A stretch of DNA of 29,305 nucleotides. It comes from a virus. Each line of letters opens with the position of its first letter. The first letter of the stretch is position 1. A program made the translations under genes and the position numbers. The notes beneath the pieces are model-generated. The model did not search any database. It was not told the DNA's origin and was given only the letters and a program-made list of their open reading frames with translations. The stretch is from positions 1 through 29,305 of the IMG/VR virus record IMGVR_UViG_3300030382_000094, one strand, 5' to 3'. Shown here piece after piece: positions 16,105 through 26,888 of this stretch.

Positions 16105-16359
16105 ATGACACACGGGGGAAAAAGAACAGGAGCAGGGCGTAAGGCAAAAGCAGAAGAGCAAAAGCTAATAGAGAATTTAACACCTATGAACGCAATGGCA
16201 TTAGAGTCATTACAAAAGGGCTTAGAAAAGAAAGAACAATGGGCTGTTAAATTATTCTTTGAATACTTCTATGGCAAACCTCAACAAAGAGTAGATGTTA
16301 CTTCAAATGAAGAAAGCCTTAATGTTCCTTTAATAAACTTTGTAAAAACTGAATCTTAA
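16105..16359 (+). CDS. terS: Small terminase subunit-like protein
   Basis: The product is 84 aa, starting MTHGGKRTGAGRKAKAEEQK, with the GGKRxGAGRK motif frequent at the start of phage terminase small subunits and related DNA-binding proteins. A helical core (MNAMALESLQKGLEKKEQW, VKLFFEYFYGKPQQRVDV) follows. It directly precedes and overlaps the large subunit by 11 nt. Small subunits recognise the packaging site and recruit the large subunit. It is shorter than many, but the context makes the call good. Confidence 0.75.
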   Translation: MTHGGKRTGAGRKAKAEEQKLIENLTPMNAMALESLQKGLEKKEQWAVKLFFEYFYGKPQQRVDVTSNEESLNVPLINFVKTES

Positions 16360-17551
16360 CGAAAAATATAATCCACTCTTTGAGTCTGATGCTAGATACT
16401 TTATAATTACAGGAGGTAGAGGATCGGGAAAGTCTTTTGCTGTTACAGTCTTTCTAACGCTACTAACTATGAGTGAAGGAATTAGAATACTCTTTACAAG
16501 ATACACTATGACCTCAGCACGTCTTTCAATAATACCTGAGTTCTTAGAAAAGATAAGCCTATTAGGATATGATGAAGTCTTTAGTGTAAACAAGGCAGAG
16601 GTTGTAAATCTAAAGAACAAGTCAGACATTCTATTTAGAGGTATCAAGACATCAGCAGGAAATCAGACAGCTAGTCTAAAGTCTTTAACAGGGGTTTCTA
16701 ATTGGGTACTTGATGAAGCTGAAGAACTTATTGACGAAAACATCTTTGATACAATTGACCTTAGTATTAGAGAAAAGAATATACAAAATAGAATCATCTT
16801 AGTTTTGAATCCCGTTACTAAAGACAATTGGATATATGAAAGATTCTTTGAGGGCAAAGGAATAGAAGCAGGTTTTAATGGCGTTAAAGGGAATGTATGC
16901 TATATCCATAGTACATACCTAGACAATAAAGAAAATCTCTCAGAGAGCTTCCTAGAGCGTGTAGAAGCTATAAAGCACACTAACTTCAAGAAGTATAAGC
17001 AAAAACTGCTTGGACAATGGCTAGATCGTGCAGAGGGTGTAGTATTTGACAATTGGTCAATAGGAGAATTTAATCCTGATGAACTTCAAACATCTTGTGG
17101 AATGGATTTTGGATTTAGTATAGACCCTGACTCGCTTACTGAAGTAGCTATTGATAAGAAGCATAAGAAGATATACCTTAAAGAACACGTCTATCGTAAT
17201 GGATTAAAGAGTCAAGAACTAGCTCAAATAGTCTTAGATAAAGTAGATAATATGTTGATTATCGCTGACAGCAGCGAACCACGTCTAATTGCCGATTTAA
17301 AGCATTTAGGAGTAAACATTAAGCCTGTTAAAAAAGGAACTATTGAAAGTGGTATAACTAGAATGCAAGACTATCACTTAGTAGTAAGTCCTGAATCAAC
17401 TAATATAGCTAAAGAGCTGAACAATTATGTCTATGCAGATAAAGGCTCTAAGCTGTACGTAGATAACTATAATCACGCAATAGACGGAATAAGATATAAC
17501 ATTATATACCACCTTGACAATCCAAATGCAGGTAGGTATTTTGTACAGTAA
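16349..17551 (+). CDS. terL: Terminase large subunit
   Basis: The product is 400 aa. Walker A is YFIITGGRGSGKSFA near residue 18-32, a Walker B-like motif WVLDEAEEL follows, then ILVLNPVTKDNW. The nuclease part includes GMDFGFSIDPDSL, IIADSSEPRLI and the final YNHAIDGIRYNI, whose Asp residues fit the RNase H-like active site. The first ATG (16469) lies after Walker A and would destroy the ATPase, so translation must begin upstream. The frame is open only back to 16346, and the best start there is CTG 16349, giving MNLNEKYNPLFESDARYF. The gene overlaps the small subunit by 11 nt. Confidence 0.92.
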   Translation: MNLNEKYNPLFESDARYFIITGGRGSGKSFAVTVFLTLLTMSEGIRILFTRYTMTSARLSIIPEFLEKISLLGYDEVFSVNKAEVVNLKNKSDILFRGIKTSAGNQTASLKSLTGVSNWVLDEAEELIDENIFDTIDLSIREKNIQNRIILVLNPVTKDNWIYERFFEGKGIEAGFNGVKGNVCYIHSTYLDNKENLSESFLERVEAIKHTNFKKYKQKLLGQWLDRAEGVVFDNWSIGEFNPDELQTSCGMDFGFSIDPDSLTEVAIDKKHKKIYLKEHVYRNGLKSQELAQIVLDKVDNMLIIADSSEPRLIADLKHLGVNIKPVKKGTIESGITRMQDYHLVVSPESTNIAKELNNYVYADKGSKLYVDNYNHAIDGIRYNIIYHLDNPNAGRYFVQ

Positions 17552-17591: not shown

Positions 17592-18233
17592 ATGAAAGTA
17601 AAAATTAAGAAGAAGGGAAAAGTAAAAGAGTTCAAGCTAATTAGTAAGTGGTCAGATGTAACTCTTGAAAAGTGGTTGAAGCTAATTGACTTTCACGAAG
17701 GCAGTAAGAGCAAAGAAGCAGAGGAAACAATAGCAGCATTATCTAATATTCCAAAAGACTTAATTAAGCAGTTGGAGTTAAAAGATGTAGCTATTATAAT
17801 GGGGAAGATAGCAGAGCTTCAGTCAAAGCAAGATAGTTCTTTAAAAAGGATAGTTGAAATAGATGGTAAAGAGTATGGCTTTCACCCTGACTTGGATAGT
17901 ATTACATTAGGTGAGTATGCCGATATAGAAACATTTATAAAGAATGATATTGAAAAGAACTTGCCTGAATTAATGGCAGTCCTTTATAGACCAATAACGG
18001 AAAAGAAGAATGATGTCTATACTATTGAAGCCTATGATGGCAATATAAAGATTAGGACAGAAGAAATGAAGAAGATGGCAGCAGAGCAAGTGCAAAGTGC
18101 GCTGGTTTTTTTTTATCGTTTAGGAAACGAATTGCTACTGACTTTGCCATCATTTTTGACGGAGCGGCTGAAGGAAATGAAGATGCAATTGCAAGTGAAT
18201 CCTTCTCAGAAAAGTGGGGGTGGTTCGGAGTAA
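17592..18233 (+). CDS. Tail assembly chaperone-like protein, 213 aa (frame 0)
   Basis: Residues 1 to about 170 form an alpha/beta domain (LISKWSDVTLEKWLKLIDFH, GFHPDLDSITLGEYADIETF, NLPELMAVLYRPITEK) common in Bacteroidota prophages. It ends YRLGNELLLTLPSFLTERL and a Gly/Ser tail. A run of nine T at 18106-18114 lets ribosomes slip -1 into a second conserved frame. A short form plus a frameshifted long form, at the start of a tail unit, is the hallmark of gpG/gpGT-type tail chaperones that guide tape measure folding. The chaperone function is inferred from this architecture. Confidence 0.75.
   Translation: MKVKIKKKGKVKEFKLISKWSDVTLEKWLKLIDFHEGSKSKEAEETIAALSNIPKDLIKQLELKDVAIIMGKIAELQSKQDSSLKRIVEIDGKEYGFHPDLDSITLGEYADIETFIKNDIEKNLPELMAVLYRPITEKKNDVYTIEAYDGNIKIRTEEMKKMAAEQVQSALVFFYRLGNELLLTLPSFLTERLKEMKMQLQVNPSQKSGGGSE
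18106..18114 (+). other. Programmed -1 frameshift slippery site
   Basis: Nine consecutive T give U-UUU-UUU in the zero frame (codons 18108-18110 and 18111-18113), a canonical -1 slip heptamer. The -1 frame is open to 18370, whereas the +1 frame stops at once (TAG at 18121). Confidence 0.75.
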
Positions 18234-18370
18234 TGTATAGGCTCACAGGAGGGGAGATTGTAAACTTAGAAAGAATAACAAATCTTAGTCTTTTAGAATG
18301 CTTAACTTGGTTAAGTTATGAAACAGATTTAGACTCACAAAATAAAGTAAAAAATGGCAGTAAACAATAA
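18113..18370 (+). CDS. Tail chaperone extension in the -1 frame
   Basis: After slipping at the T-run, the ribosome reads LSFRKRIATDFAIIFDGAAE, then SFSEKWGWFGVMYRLTGGEI, then LSLLECLTWLSYETDLD and stops at 18368-18370. This adds 85 residues for a total of about 259 aa. KWGWFGVMYRLTGG...LECLTWLSYE is the kind of conserved C-terminal domain found at this position in Bacteroidota phages. An ATG at 18233 could start a separate 45-aa protein, but conserved-looking residues upstream of it (EKWGWFGV) favour the fusion. The end overlaps the next gene by 17 nt. Confidence 0.7.
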   Translation, partial: LSFRKRIATDFAIIFDGAAEGNEDAIASESFSEKWGWFGVMYRLTGGEIVNLERITNLSLLECLTWLSYETDLDSQNKVKNGSKQ

Positions 18371-18926
18371 GACATATAATAACGTAATAGACACTCTTTG
18401 CCGACTAGGGCAGTATCACGAACAAATAGCAACAGTATCAGTTGGAGATATATATGACGTAAATCTTGAGAAGCAGGAAAAGATGGCACTCTTGCATATC
18501 AATCCAACATCAGTTAGTACAGAAGATTCAGCTCTTATCTATAACTTTCAAATCTTTATATGTGATTTAGTTTCGGAGAAAGAGAATTGGAAAACATATC
18601 AAGCAGAGCAGCTAACTAAATTAATAGACACTAAGACTAATGAACAGCAAGTATGGAATCAAACTTTAGAAATATGTACTGACTTTATAGGAATGCTTAG
18701 ACATAGTGTATATCAATCCTTGATTGGAGCGAATGACATTAACGACCCTGTGTACTTTACGGAAGATGAATTTACAATAGAACCATTCCAAGAAAGGTTT
18801 GACAATCTTTTATGTGGGTGGACTTTTACAATAGGCATTAAAGTAATGTATGACTTTGATACTTGTACTTTACCTATATTATCCGCAAAAGGAGCAGGTT
18901 ATCCTCCTAAAGTAGTGATTGGATAA
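18354..18926 (+). CDS. Neck/tail terminator-like structural protein
   Basis: The product is 190 aa, alpha/beta. TYNNVIDTLCRLGQYHEQIA, then SVGDIYDVNLEKQEKMALLH and an antiparallel-looking middle (SALIYNFQIFICDLVSEKEN), and a C-terminal beta segment (LLCGWTFTIGIKVMYDFDTC). This arrangement of a helix, a 'YNFxIxIxD' strand and 'LCGWTF' is what I recognise in tail terminator/completion proteins of Bacteroidota phages. It would cap the tail tube at the neck. It precedes an HK97 gp10-like gene two genes on. Confidence 0.6.
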   Translation: MAVNNKTYNNVIDTLCRLGQYHEQIATVSVGDIYDVNLEKQEKMALLHINPTSVSTEDSALIYNFQIFICDLVSEKENWKTYQAEQLTKLIDTKTNEQQVWNQTLEICTDFIGMLRHSVYQSLIGANDINDPVYFTEDEFTIEPFQERFDNLLCGWTFTIGIKVMYDFDTCTLPILSAKGAGYPPKVVIG

Positions 18927-25157: not shown

Positions 25158-26888
25158 ATGGCAAAGGAAGTTTTAGAAATGGAAGTAAAGAGTAATATTA
25201 AAAATGTTACTAAAGAAACTGATGACTTAGGAAAAAGTATAGGCAAGGCTAGTGATGAAACCAAAGACTTAGATAAAGGATTAGAAGAAACAGGTAAGTC
25301 AGGGAGTAAGGGATTCAAAGCAATAGGTACAGCAGTCAAAGGCTTTGGAATGGCTTTAAAAGCAGCAGGGATTGGTTTAGTGATAGCATTATTTGTTTCT
25401 CTTAAAGAATCTTTAGAAAGGAATCAAAAAGTAATGAATACTGTTAATACCATTATGGGTACAATATCCACTACCTTTAATCAAGTTGCAAATGTTCTTG
25501 TTGAAGTCTTTAATTGGACTACAAAATCAACTGATAGATTTGATGGATTAGGAAAAACATTAAGTGGATTAGTTACACTAGCCTTAACACCTTTAAAGGT
25601 TGCATTCTTTGGACTTAAATTAGGTATTCAGGGAGTTCAATTAGCGTGGGAAAAGTGGGTAGGAGGAGCAGATCCTAAAAAGATAGCAGAGCTAAAGAAG
25701 GGAATAGACGAAACAACAGACTCCCTAGCAAAAATAGCAAAGGAAGCAGTTAGTGCAGGAGCAGACATCTACAATAATATAGGTGATGCAATAGGTGAGA
25801 TAGGAGCTATTGGCGAAAAGGCTATTGAAGGAATATCTGAAATAAGTATAAAGTCAAACTATGAACTAGCAAAAGCTACAACTGCTGCTGCAAATAGTTC
25901 AAAATTAGCAGAAGCGGCTATACAAGGTCTGATTGAAAAATATGATAGACAAGCAGAGTTACAAAGACAAATAAGAGATGATGAAACTAAGACATTTGCA
26001 GAAAGAATAGCAGCCAATCAAAAACTTGCAGACATTCTTGATGAACAAGAAACAAAAATGTTAGCACTAGCAGATACTAGAGTCGCTTCAGCAGCATTAG
26101 AGTTATCAGCTAATAAAGAGAATGTAGAGTTACAAGTTGCTTATCAACAAGCATTAAATGACAGGGCAGGAGTTGAAGCTCAAGTAGCAGGGTTTAGAAG
26201 TGAGCAAATGACTAATGAAGTTTCTTTAAATAAAGAATTAGGTGAAATAAAGAAGGAAGTATTAAACGCAAGTCTTGAAGGTATAGCATTAGAGCTGGAA
26301 GAATTAAAGAACTCTTATGAAATGCAGCTAGAAATGGCTAGGAAGTCAGGAATGGACACTACTGCTATTACTGAAAAATACGAAAGAGATAAAGCTAATA
26401 TTGTTAAGGCTAATACAAAGCAGATTGTAAAATTTGCTCAAATGTCATCAGACCAACAATTAGATATAGCATCTAGTACGGCAGGTAATATGGTTAAGAT
26501 ATTAGGAGAAGAAACAGCAGCAGGGAAGGCTATGGCAATAGTACAAGCAACTATTGATACTTATAAAGGTGCACAAGCTGCTTATGCTTCAATGGTAGGG
26601 ATTCCTGTAGTTGGTCCTGCACTTGGAGCGGTTGCAGCAGCAGCAGCAGTTGCTATGGGATTGAAGAATATACAAGCTATACAATCAGCAGAATCAGGTG
26701 GTGGTGGTGGTGGAGGAGGTGGAGGCGGAGGAACAGCACCACAAACTCCCGCACCACAAATGATGTCAGGAGCTTTTGAATTAAGCGGTGGAGTAGCTCC
26801 TGAACCTGTCAAGGCATTTGTAGTAACTGACGAGATGTCTAATAGCCAGAATCAATTAGCAAATATAAGACGTAGAGCTACTATTTAA
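25158..26888 (+). CDS. Tail tape measure protein
   Basis: The product is 576 aa. The N-terminus is a helical repeat of Lys/Asp/Thr (NVTKETDDLGKSIGKASDET), followed by a hydrophobic segment (residues about 68-85, KAAGIGLVIALFVSLKES). Long coiled coils occupy residues about 180-430 (EKYDRQAELQRQIRDDETKT, ELEELKNSYEMQLEMARKSG). An Ala/Gly hydrophobic stretch (PVVGPALGAVAAAAAVAMGL) and 12 consecutive Gly precede a tail ending NQLANIRRRATI. By the usual rule of about 0.15 nm per residue, the tail would be near 85 nm. It lies unusually far from the chaperone gene. Confidence 0.85.
   Translation: MAKEVLEMEVKSNIKNVTKETDDLGKSIGKASDETKDLDKGLEETGKSGSKGFKAIGTAVKGFGMALKAAGIGLVIALFVSLKESLERNQKVMNTVNTIMGTISTTFNQVANVLVEVFNWTTKSTDRFDGLGKTLSGLVTLALTPLKVAFFGLKLGIQGVQLAWEKWVGGADPKKIAELKKGIDETTDSLAKIAKEAVSAGADIYNNIGDAIGEIGAIGEKAIEGISEISIKSNYELAKATTAAANSSKLAEAAIQGLIEKYDRQAELQRQIRDDETKTFAERIAANQKLADILDEQETKMLALADTRVASAALELSANKENVELQVAYQQALNDRAGVEAQVAGFRSEQMTNEVSLNKELGEIKKEVLNASLEGIALELEELKNSYEMQLEMARKSGMDTTAITEKYERDKANIVKANTKQIVKFAQMSSDQQLDIASSTAGNMVKILGEETAAGKAMAIVQATIDTYKGAQAAYASMVGIPVVGPALGAVAAAAAVAMGLKNIQAIQSAESGGGGGGGGGGGGTAPQTPAPQMMSGAFELSGGVAPEPVKAFVVTDEMSNSQNQLANIRRRATI
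26697..26732 (+). repeat. GGN trinucleotide run coding for 12 glycines
   Basis: Twelve consecutive Gly codons (five GGT, then a mix of GGA, GGT and GGC) lie in the tape measure gene between its hydrophobic and C-terminal parts. They probably act as a flexible linker, and replication slippage there may vary its length. The reverse-strand polyproline frame here is only a shadow. Confidence 0.85.

Follow-up and report, generated by a model that had tools for sequence, protein, structure and literature searches.

Conserved -1 recoding very likely gives short and long forms of a tail-chaperone-like protein in a family of presumed Bacteroidota phages

A gene lying directly after the terminase in a virus record 29,305 bases long (the window, by which we mean this whole stretch of DNA) very likely undergoes conserved -1 recoding, with sequence comparison predicting a short product of 213 aa and a long product of 259 aa. 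This reading rests on the conservation of a T run, of both reading frames and of the -1 relation between them, together with a -1 part that has no start of its own, slip codons that are under constraint and a fusion that is colinear with homologues read in one frame. The same evidence upholds the programmed -1 frameshift that an earlier note on this DNA had proposed from the letters of the window. The full explanation, which we hold to be reasonably probable, is of one recoded gene on which the ribosome slips to produce 213-aa and 259-aa tail-chaperone-like forms. The phage is probably a siphovirus of marine Bacteroidota, a host that we infer.

Over the nine Ts the zero-frame codons read CTG GTT TTT TTT TAT CGT, and this frame continues for 39 codons past the slip to a stop at 18231-18233. 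The -1 frame passes through the run without a stop and continues for 85 codons from 18113 as far as a stop at 18368-18370. The 85-residue addition that it encodes ends ...KWGWFGVMYRLTGG...LECLTWLSYE...KQ, and the predicted fusion accordingly measures 174 + 85 = 259 aa. No ATG, GTG or TTG occurs in the -1 frame of the window between the upstream stop and the conserved part. The run is the only one of at least nine Ts in the 29.3 kb. The earlier note had placed a nine-T run with a zero-frame U-UUU-UUU at 18106-18114 and had described 85 codons of -1 frame without a good start; the coordinates and counts are right, and the lack of any of these three start codons before the conserved part agrees with that description. 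The features discussed here are collected in the table.

Table. Positions of the recoded gene, its slip site and its neighbours in the window.
Feature	Position	Strand	Evidence or remark
Terminase large subunit, upstream neighbour	16469..17551	+	Terminase_3 4e-27, Terminase_3C 2e-12, phrog_2 7e-34
Zero-frame gene, 213-aa short product (gpG-like)	17592..18233	+	Residues 1-174 common to the predicted fusion
Run of nine T	18106..18114	+	Sequence; at least nine T in 608/608 sequences
In-phase slip heptamer U_UUU_UUU	18107..18113	+	Slip codons without synonymous change
-1 frame part (gpT-like), 85 codons + stop	18113..18370	+	Aligns within single-ORF homologues
Overlap read in both frames: zero-frame tail, 39 codons + stop	18114..18233	+	
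Next gene, starting inside the end of the -1 frame	18354..18926	+	No significant family match
Tape measure protein candidate	25158..26888	+	Several phrog tape-measure families, best E 2.6e-11

In the model that we propose, most ribosomes would pass the slip site without shifting and produce the G-like short protein of 213 aa, and a minority would slip one base back on U_UUU_UUU (18107-18113) to produce the GT-like fusion of 259 aa. In lambda, the short form and the G part are modelled on the tape measure protein, with the T part recruiting the tail tube (PMC5009743). If this gene works like gpG/gpGT, its tape measure protein would be coated by the short form together with the G part, tail-tube subunits would be brought in by the -1 domain, and tail assembly would be controlled by the ratio of short to long forms. 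The ribosome as the slipping agent, the efficiency of the shift and the chaperone role are each something that we infer.

Relatives were gathered in eight IMG/VR scans with either part of the gene and one genome scan, together with the isolated Nonlabens phages P12024S and P12024L, giving 610 sequences including the window, with some contigs represented more than once. The first 448 sequences with both parts comprised 333 distinct ones, and the first 323 complete distinct sequences formed 75 clusters below 80% identity. Most search patterns excluded the slip site, and two covered it in part (FFYHLGND and FFLSFRER). Both parts were present in 608 sequences. In each of these the -1 frame carries the second part, and an in-phase T_TTT_TTT is kept within a run of at least nine Ts (nine in 578, ten in 27 and twelve in three), and the most distant cluster is ~26% identical to the window. 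The register has moved in some lineages (CGG TTT TTT TTT G; CTT TTT TTT TTC), where the codons changed too and the in-phase heptamer was kept. Among 126 independent close pairs, synonymous change was seen in 0/126, 0/126 and 0/115 cases at the three slip codons, and at a rate of about 0.2 at the codons around the slip. Phe at the slip is encoded by TTT 646 times and never by TTC, and other zero-frame Phe codons comprise 1165 TTT and 483 TTC. Because the arrangement is in phase in 608 of 608 sequences and the slip codons show no synonymous change, it is, as far as sequence comparison can speak, beyond chance or error. The check that had been suggested for this gene, a comparison of T-run length and of both frames across related genomes, thus returned the in-phase run and the -1 relation in every one of the 608; within the family we found no -1 gene with a separate start and no run of eight Ts, and the ten- and twelve-T runs occur only with the in-phase heptamer retained.

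Ribosomal slippage is the better guess as to the agent, by analogy, because known G/GT pairs work in this way. The main competing account, to which we give a lesser but appreciable weight, has RNA polymerase slip on the T9, adding a U or dropping two, with the altered mRNA then translated normally into the fusion. It draws on a T run that never falls below nine in 608 sequences of various registers (9, 10 and 12) when the heptamer needs only seven, on runs of nine A or T being given as bacterial transcriptional slippage sites in a review (PMC5009743), and on a search for ribosomal stimulators that found none: no stimulatory structure was detected in the downstream RNA (z +0.34; consensus -0.86 kcal/mol, with compensatory change in one of 13 pairs), and an Rfam search returned no match. 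In E. coli, U_UUU_UUU is also less shift-prone than A_AAA_AAG (PMC5009743). However, T9 runs elsewhere in these contigs occur at about the simulated rate, and the known G/GT cases, some of them without stimulators, have been attributed to ribosomal shifting (PMC5009743). The length of the run does not tell the two agents apart and was rejected as a discriminator, because any run of nine Ts contains an in-phase heptamer and the conserved residues at the site (aliphatic-Phe-Phe-aromatic) supply most of the extra Ts, so that residues and heptamer together largely force nine. A bolder version, which we regard as doubtful, is that polymerase acting on an obligatory T9 sets the ratio of short to long forms across this large clade of aquatic phages and that unshifted relatives build their tails with the long form alone, in which case the short form could be dispensed with or would have been added later.

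Two further observations concern homopolymers in these genomes. The 75 cluster loci (473 kb) contain 22 runs of at least nine A where one first-order simulation gave 64, a deficit of about three-fold; runs of at least nine T show no such deficit. A second T9, absent from the window, occurs in five of the 75 clusters in the shared context TATCAATTC TTTTTTTTT AGT; it lies ~930-970 bases past the slip in L092, L077, L076 and L081, and 1303 bases past it in L053.

The pattern of substitution in the overlap suggests that both frames are used, though unequally. Rates by -1 codon position are 0.130 at position 3, 0.100 at position 1 and 0.055 at position 2; since position 3 is the highest, the -1 protein dominates selection in this region. 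At the same time, the position-3 rate rises to 0.182 where the -1 frame is read alone, so that the lower value in the overlap points to added constraint from the zero frame. In 98.7% of clusters the zero-frame tail remains open over 20 codons or more, a share that falls to 12.5% when the synonymous codons of the -1 protein are re-drawn. Its stop varies among relatives from 16 to 84 codons, and therefore the first part of the tail alone is likely to matter. The remark in the earlier note that the 39-codon tail looks genuine holds in its count and in an openness beyond expectation, but probably not for the tail as a whole, given the shifting stop and the dominance of the -1 frame over substitutions.

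Further support for the fusion comes from phages that encode it without a shift. Structure and profile searches led through Flavobacterium phage 6H gp10 to PHROG 25418 and from there to homologues that have a single ORF and measure 259-301 aa, in Flavobacterium phages 2A, FPSV-F7 and laban6-1, with further examples in Cellulophaga phage Ingeline, Polaribacter phage Leef and Microcystis phage Mea-Yong924-1; the groups represented are Duneviridae, Helgolandviridae and Microcystis phages. Aligned with hhalign, the fusion profile matches the single-ORF profile over 217 columns that run through the junction (probability 98.1, E 8e-14), and it matches individual single-ORF proteins with E values of 3e-4 to 3e-6. 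Three of these homologues encode Phe-Phe as TTT TTT at the junction without a slip run (TTA TTT TTT GGA, TTG TTT TTT GCT and CTG TTT TTT GAA). Judged by these alignments, the predicted fusion is a colinear full-length protein for which the family of the window uses two frames and the single-ORF phages one. The one-frame versions, which are confined to distant phage families and were not seen within the 608 sequences, support the fusion on the same grounds; they also show that not every homologue has the short form.

Phage 6H itself was considered as a shifted relative with a U_UUU_UUC site and rejected, as relatives ~98% identical to it have one open frame. Its gp10 (L611 10352-10927) is cut to 191 aa where a small patch of sequence diverges, the net difference being two bases, and the relatives encode 293 aa in one frame; by this comparison 6H is locally disrupted at gp10.

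The role of the protein is less firmly indicated than its recoding. AlphaFold models have a mean pLDDT of 87 (good) for the short form and 78.5 (moderate) for the -1 part. Foldseek retrieved a protein annotated as a tail assembly chaperone (E 0.016, probability 0.98), Pfam Phage_TAC_7 (tail assembly chaperone) matched weakly in four of 74 members (best E 0.0054), and phrog_166 'tail protein' was matched by 21 of the 74 and a chaperone phrog by one. The profile showed no significant homology to lambda gpG, and a fold search of solved structures in the PDB gave no match. In Ingeline the fused homologue lies between the adaptor and the tape measure, three genes before the latter with two genes between, and both Ingeline and Leef are siphoviral (PMC8776804). 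A tail-chaperone role is our best functional guess, by analogy, on the grounds of architecture, weak family matches and siphoviral context. What stands of the gpG/gpGT designation in the earlier note is thus the short/long -1 architecture, but the chaperone name goes further than the weak homology alone would take it. The gene may instead encode, by either kind of slippage, the two forms of a different protein of tail or head-tail morphogenesis, an alternative that fits with chaperone matches that are weak and singly non-significant, with a gene that adjoins the terminase and with single-ORF homologues that would make the long form alone. We think this rather unlikely, given that short and long forms produced by a -1 shift are typical of tail chaperones, that the Ingeline homologue sits where it does and that the isolates for which the literature was consulted are siphoviruses.

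The placement of the gene after the terminase and far from the tape measure had been recognized correctly, as the tape measure candidate (25158-26888) begins 6.8 kb past the end of the fusion. The gene is therefore outside the usual place of G/GT between the major tail protein and the tape measure, a position that is not strictly defining. Of the 561 relatives whose sequence extends far enough, 432 have a TerL match upstream, and the tape measure lies 6.6-7.3 kb downstream in the window and in the four relatives with a match; with the same order in relatives, the unusual arrangement is evidently inherited.

Some observations on other genes of the window were made along the way. The terminase listed in the table is an ATG-started ORF that lacks a Walker A motif when read from its first ATG (16469), and its true start is probably further upstream. 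The in-frame stretch at 16345-16469 encodes LNEKYNPLFESDARYFIITGGRGSGKSFAV, overlaps the end of the small subunit gene and offers CTG as its only available start; at about 106 related loci CTG occupies the same position and ATG, GTG and TTG are absent, with TTG, ATG or GTG in others, making conserved CUG initiation of the terminase large subunit a candidate from sequence. The C-terminal part of the protein encoded at 2182-3450 matches PHROG 347 'tail terminator' (5.6e-49); by eye it resembles a LamG-type domain, and the PHROG name may be misleading.

The -1 part could in principle be a gene of its own, read independently from its own codon as annotated in P12024S and P12024L, where GenBank begins P12024L_41 with an ATG immediately at the stop of the gene before it; a TTG also stands at or after the slip in some relatives, including at the end of the run. 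We reject this reading as highly improbable, because the -1 frame is startless and its conservation reaches back to the slip, even in these same two phages. Upstream of the slip, the -1 frame contains no ATG or GTG in any of the 75 clusters, 42 of the 75 have no ATG, GTG or TTG either upstream or in the first 28 codons, and the fused homologues are colinear. A homopolymer sequencing or assembly error in a gene that is truly one frame, as a long T run in a single metagenomic contig might suggest, is refuted, since the same arrangement recurs across 608 sequences drawn from many samples and is shared by phages in isolation; it has next to no credence.

Programmed frameshifting of tail chaperones is well known (Xu, Hendrix and Duda 2004, cited in PMC3711429), and in the open-access literature we found no paper on recoding in the phage family of the window. 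What is new is a large and strongly supported recoded family whose gene order is unusual and whose unshifted relatives are useful. On this reading, two ORFs of unknown function in an abundant family of environmental phages are re-annotated as one recoded gene, and culturable flavophages that are shifted (P12024) or unshifted (Ingeline, Leef, 2A) form a natural test of whether tail assembly needs both forms. The family also offers a candidate recoding site in Bacteroidota hosts at which ribosomal and transcriptional slippage can be separated. Three relatives (L226, L227 and L228) occur in MAGs labelled Euryarchaeota and Pseudooceanicola, and these contigs are probably mis-binned.

Among the closest known systems are the Nonlabens phages, whose proteins (P12024S gp38/39 and P12024L gp40/41) belong to PHROGs 32199 and 38404. 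They are homologous to those of the window at ~30%, and their T9 is identical and in the same phase, in a gene that also comes directly after the terminase; the annotation, however, gives two hypothetical genes and starts the second at an internal ATG. The single-ORF homologues of PHROG 25418 resemble the predicted fusion in being colinear with it across the junction and differ from the window in having one uninterrupted frame and no slip run. Bacterial transcriptional slippage sites, which include those of Thermus dnaX and Shigella mxiE, likewise give two products from a homopolymer of about nine A or T; the genes concerned there are cellular. As in lambda gpG/gpGT, the window pairs a short zero-frame product with a predicted -1 fusion formed near the end of the upstream gene, and the fused second part needs no start of its own. 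Unlike the lambda pair, it would slip at U_UUU_UUU within a T9, its zero-frame tail runs for 39 codons past the slip, and the gene follows the terminase instead of lying between the major tail protein and the tape measure.
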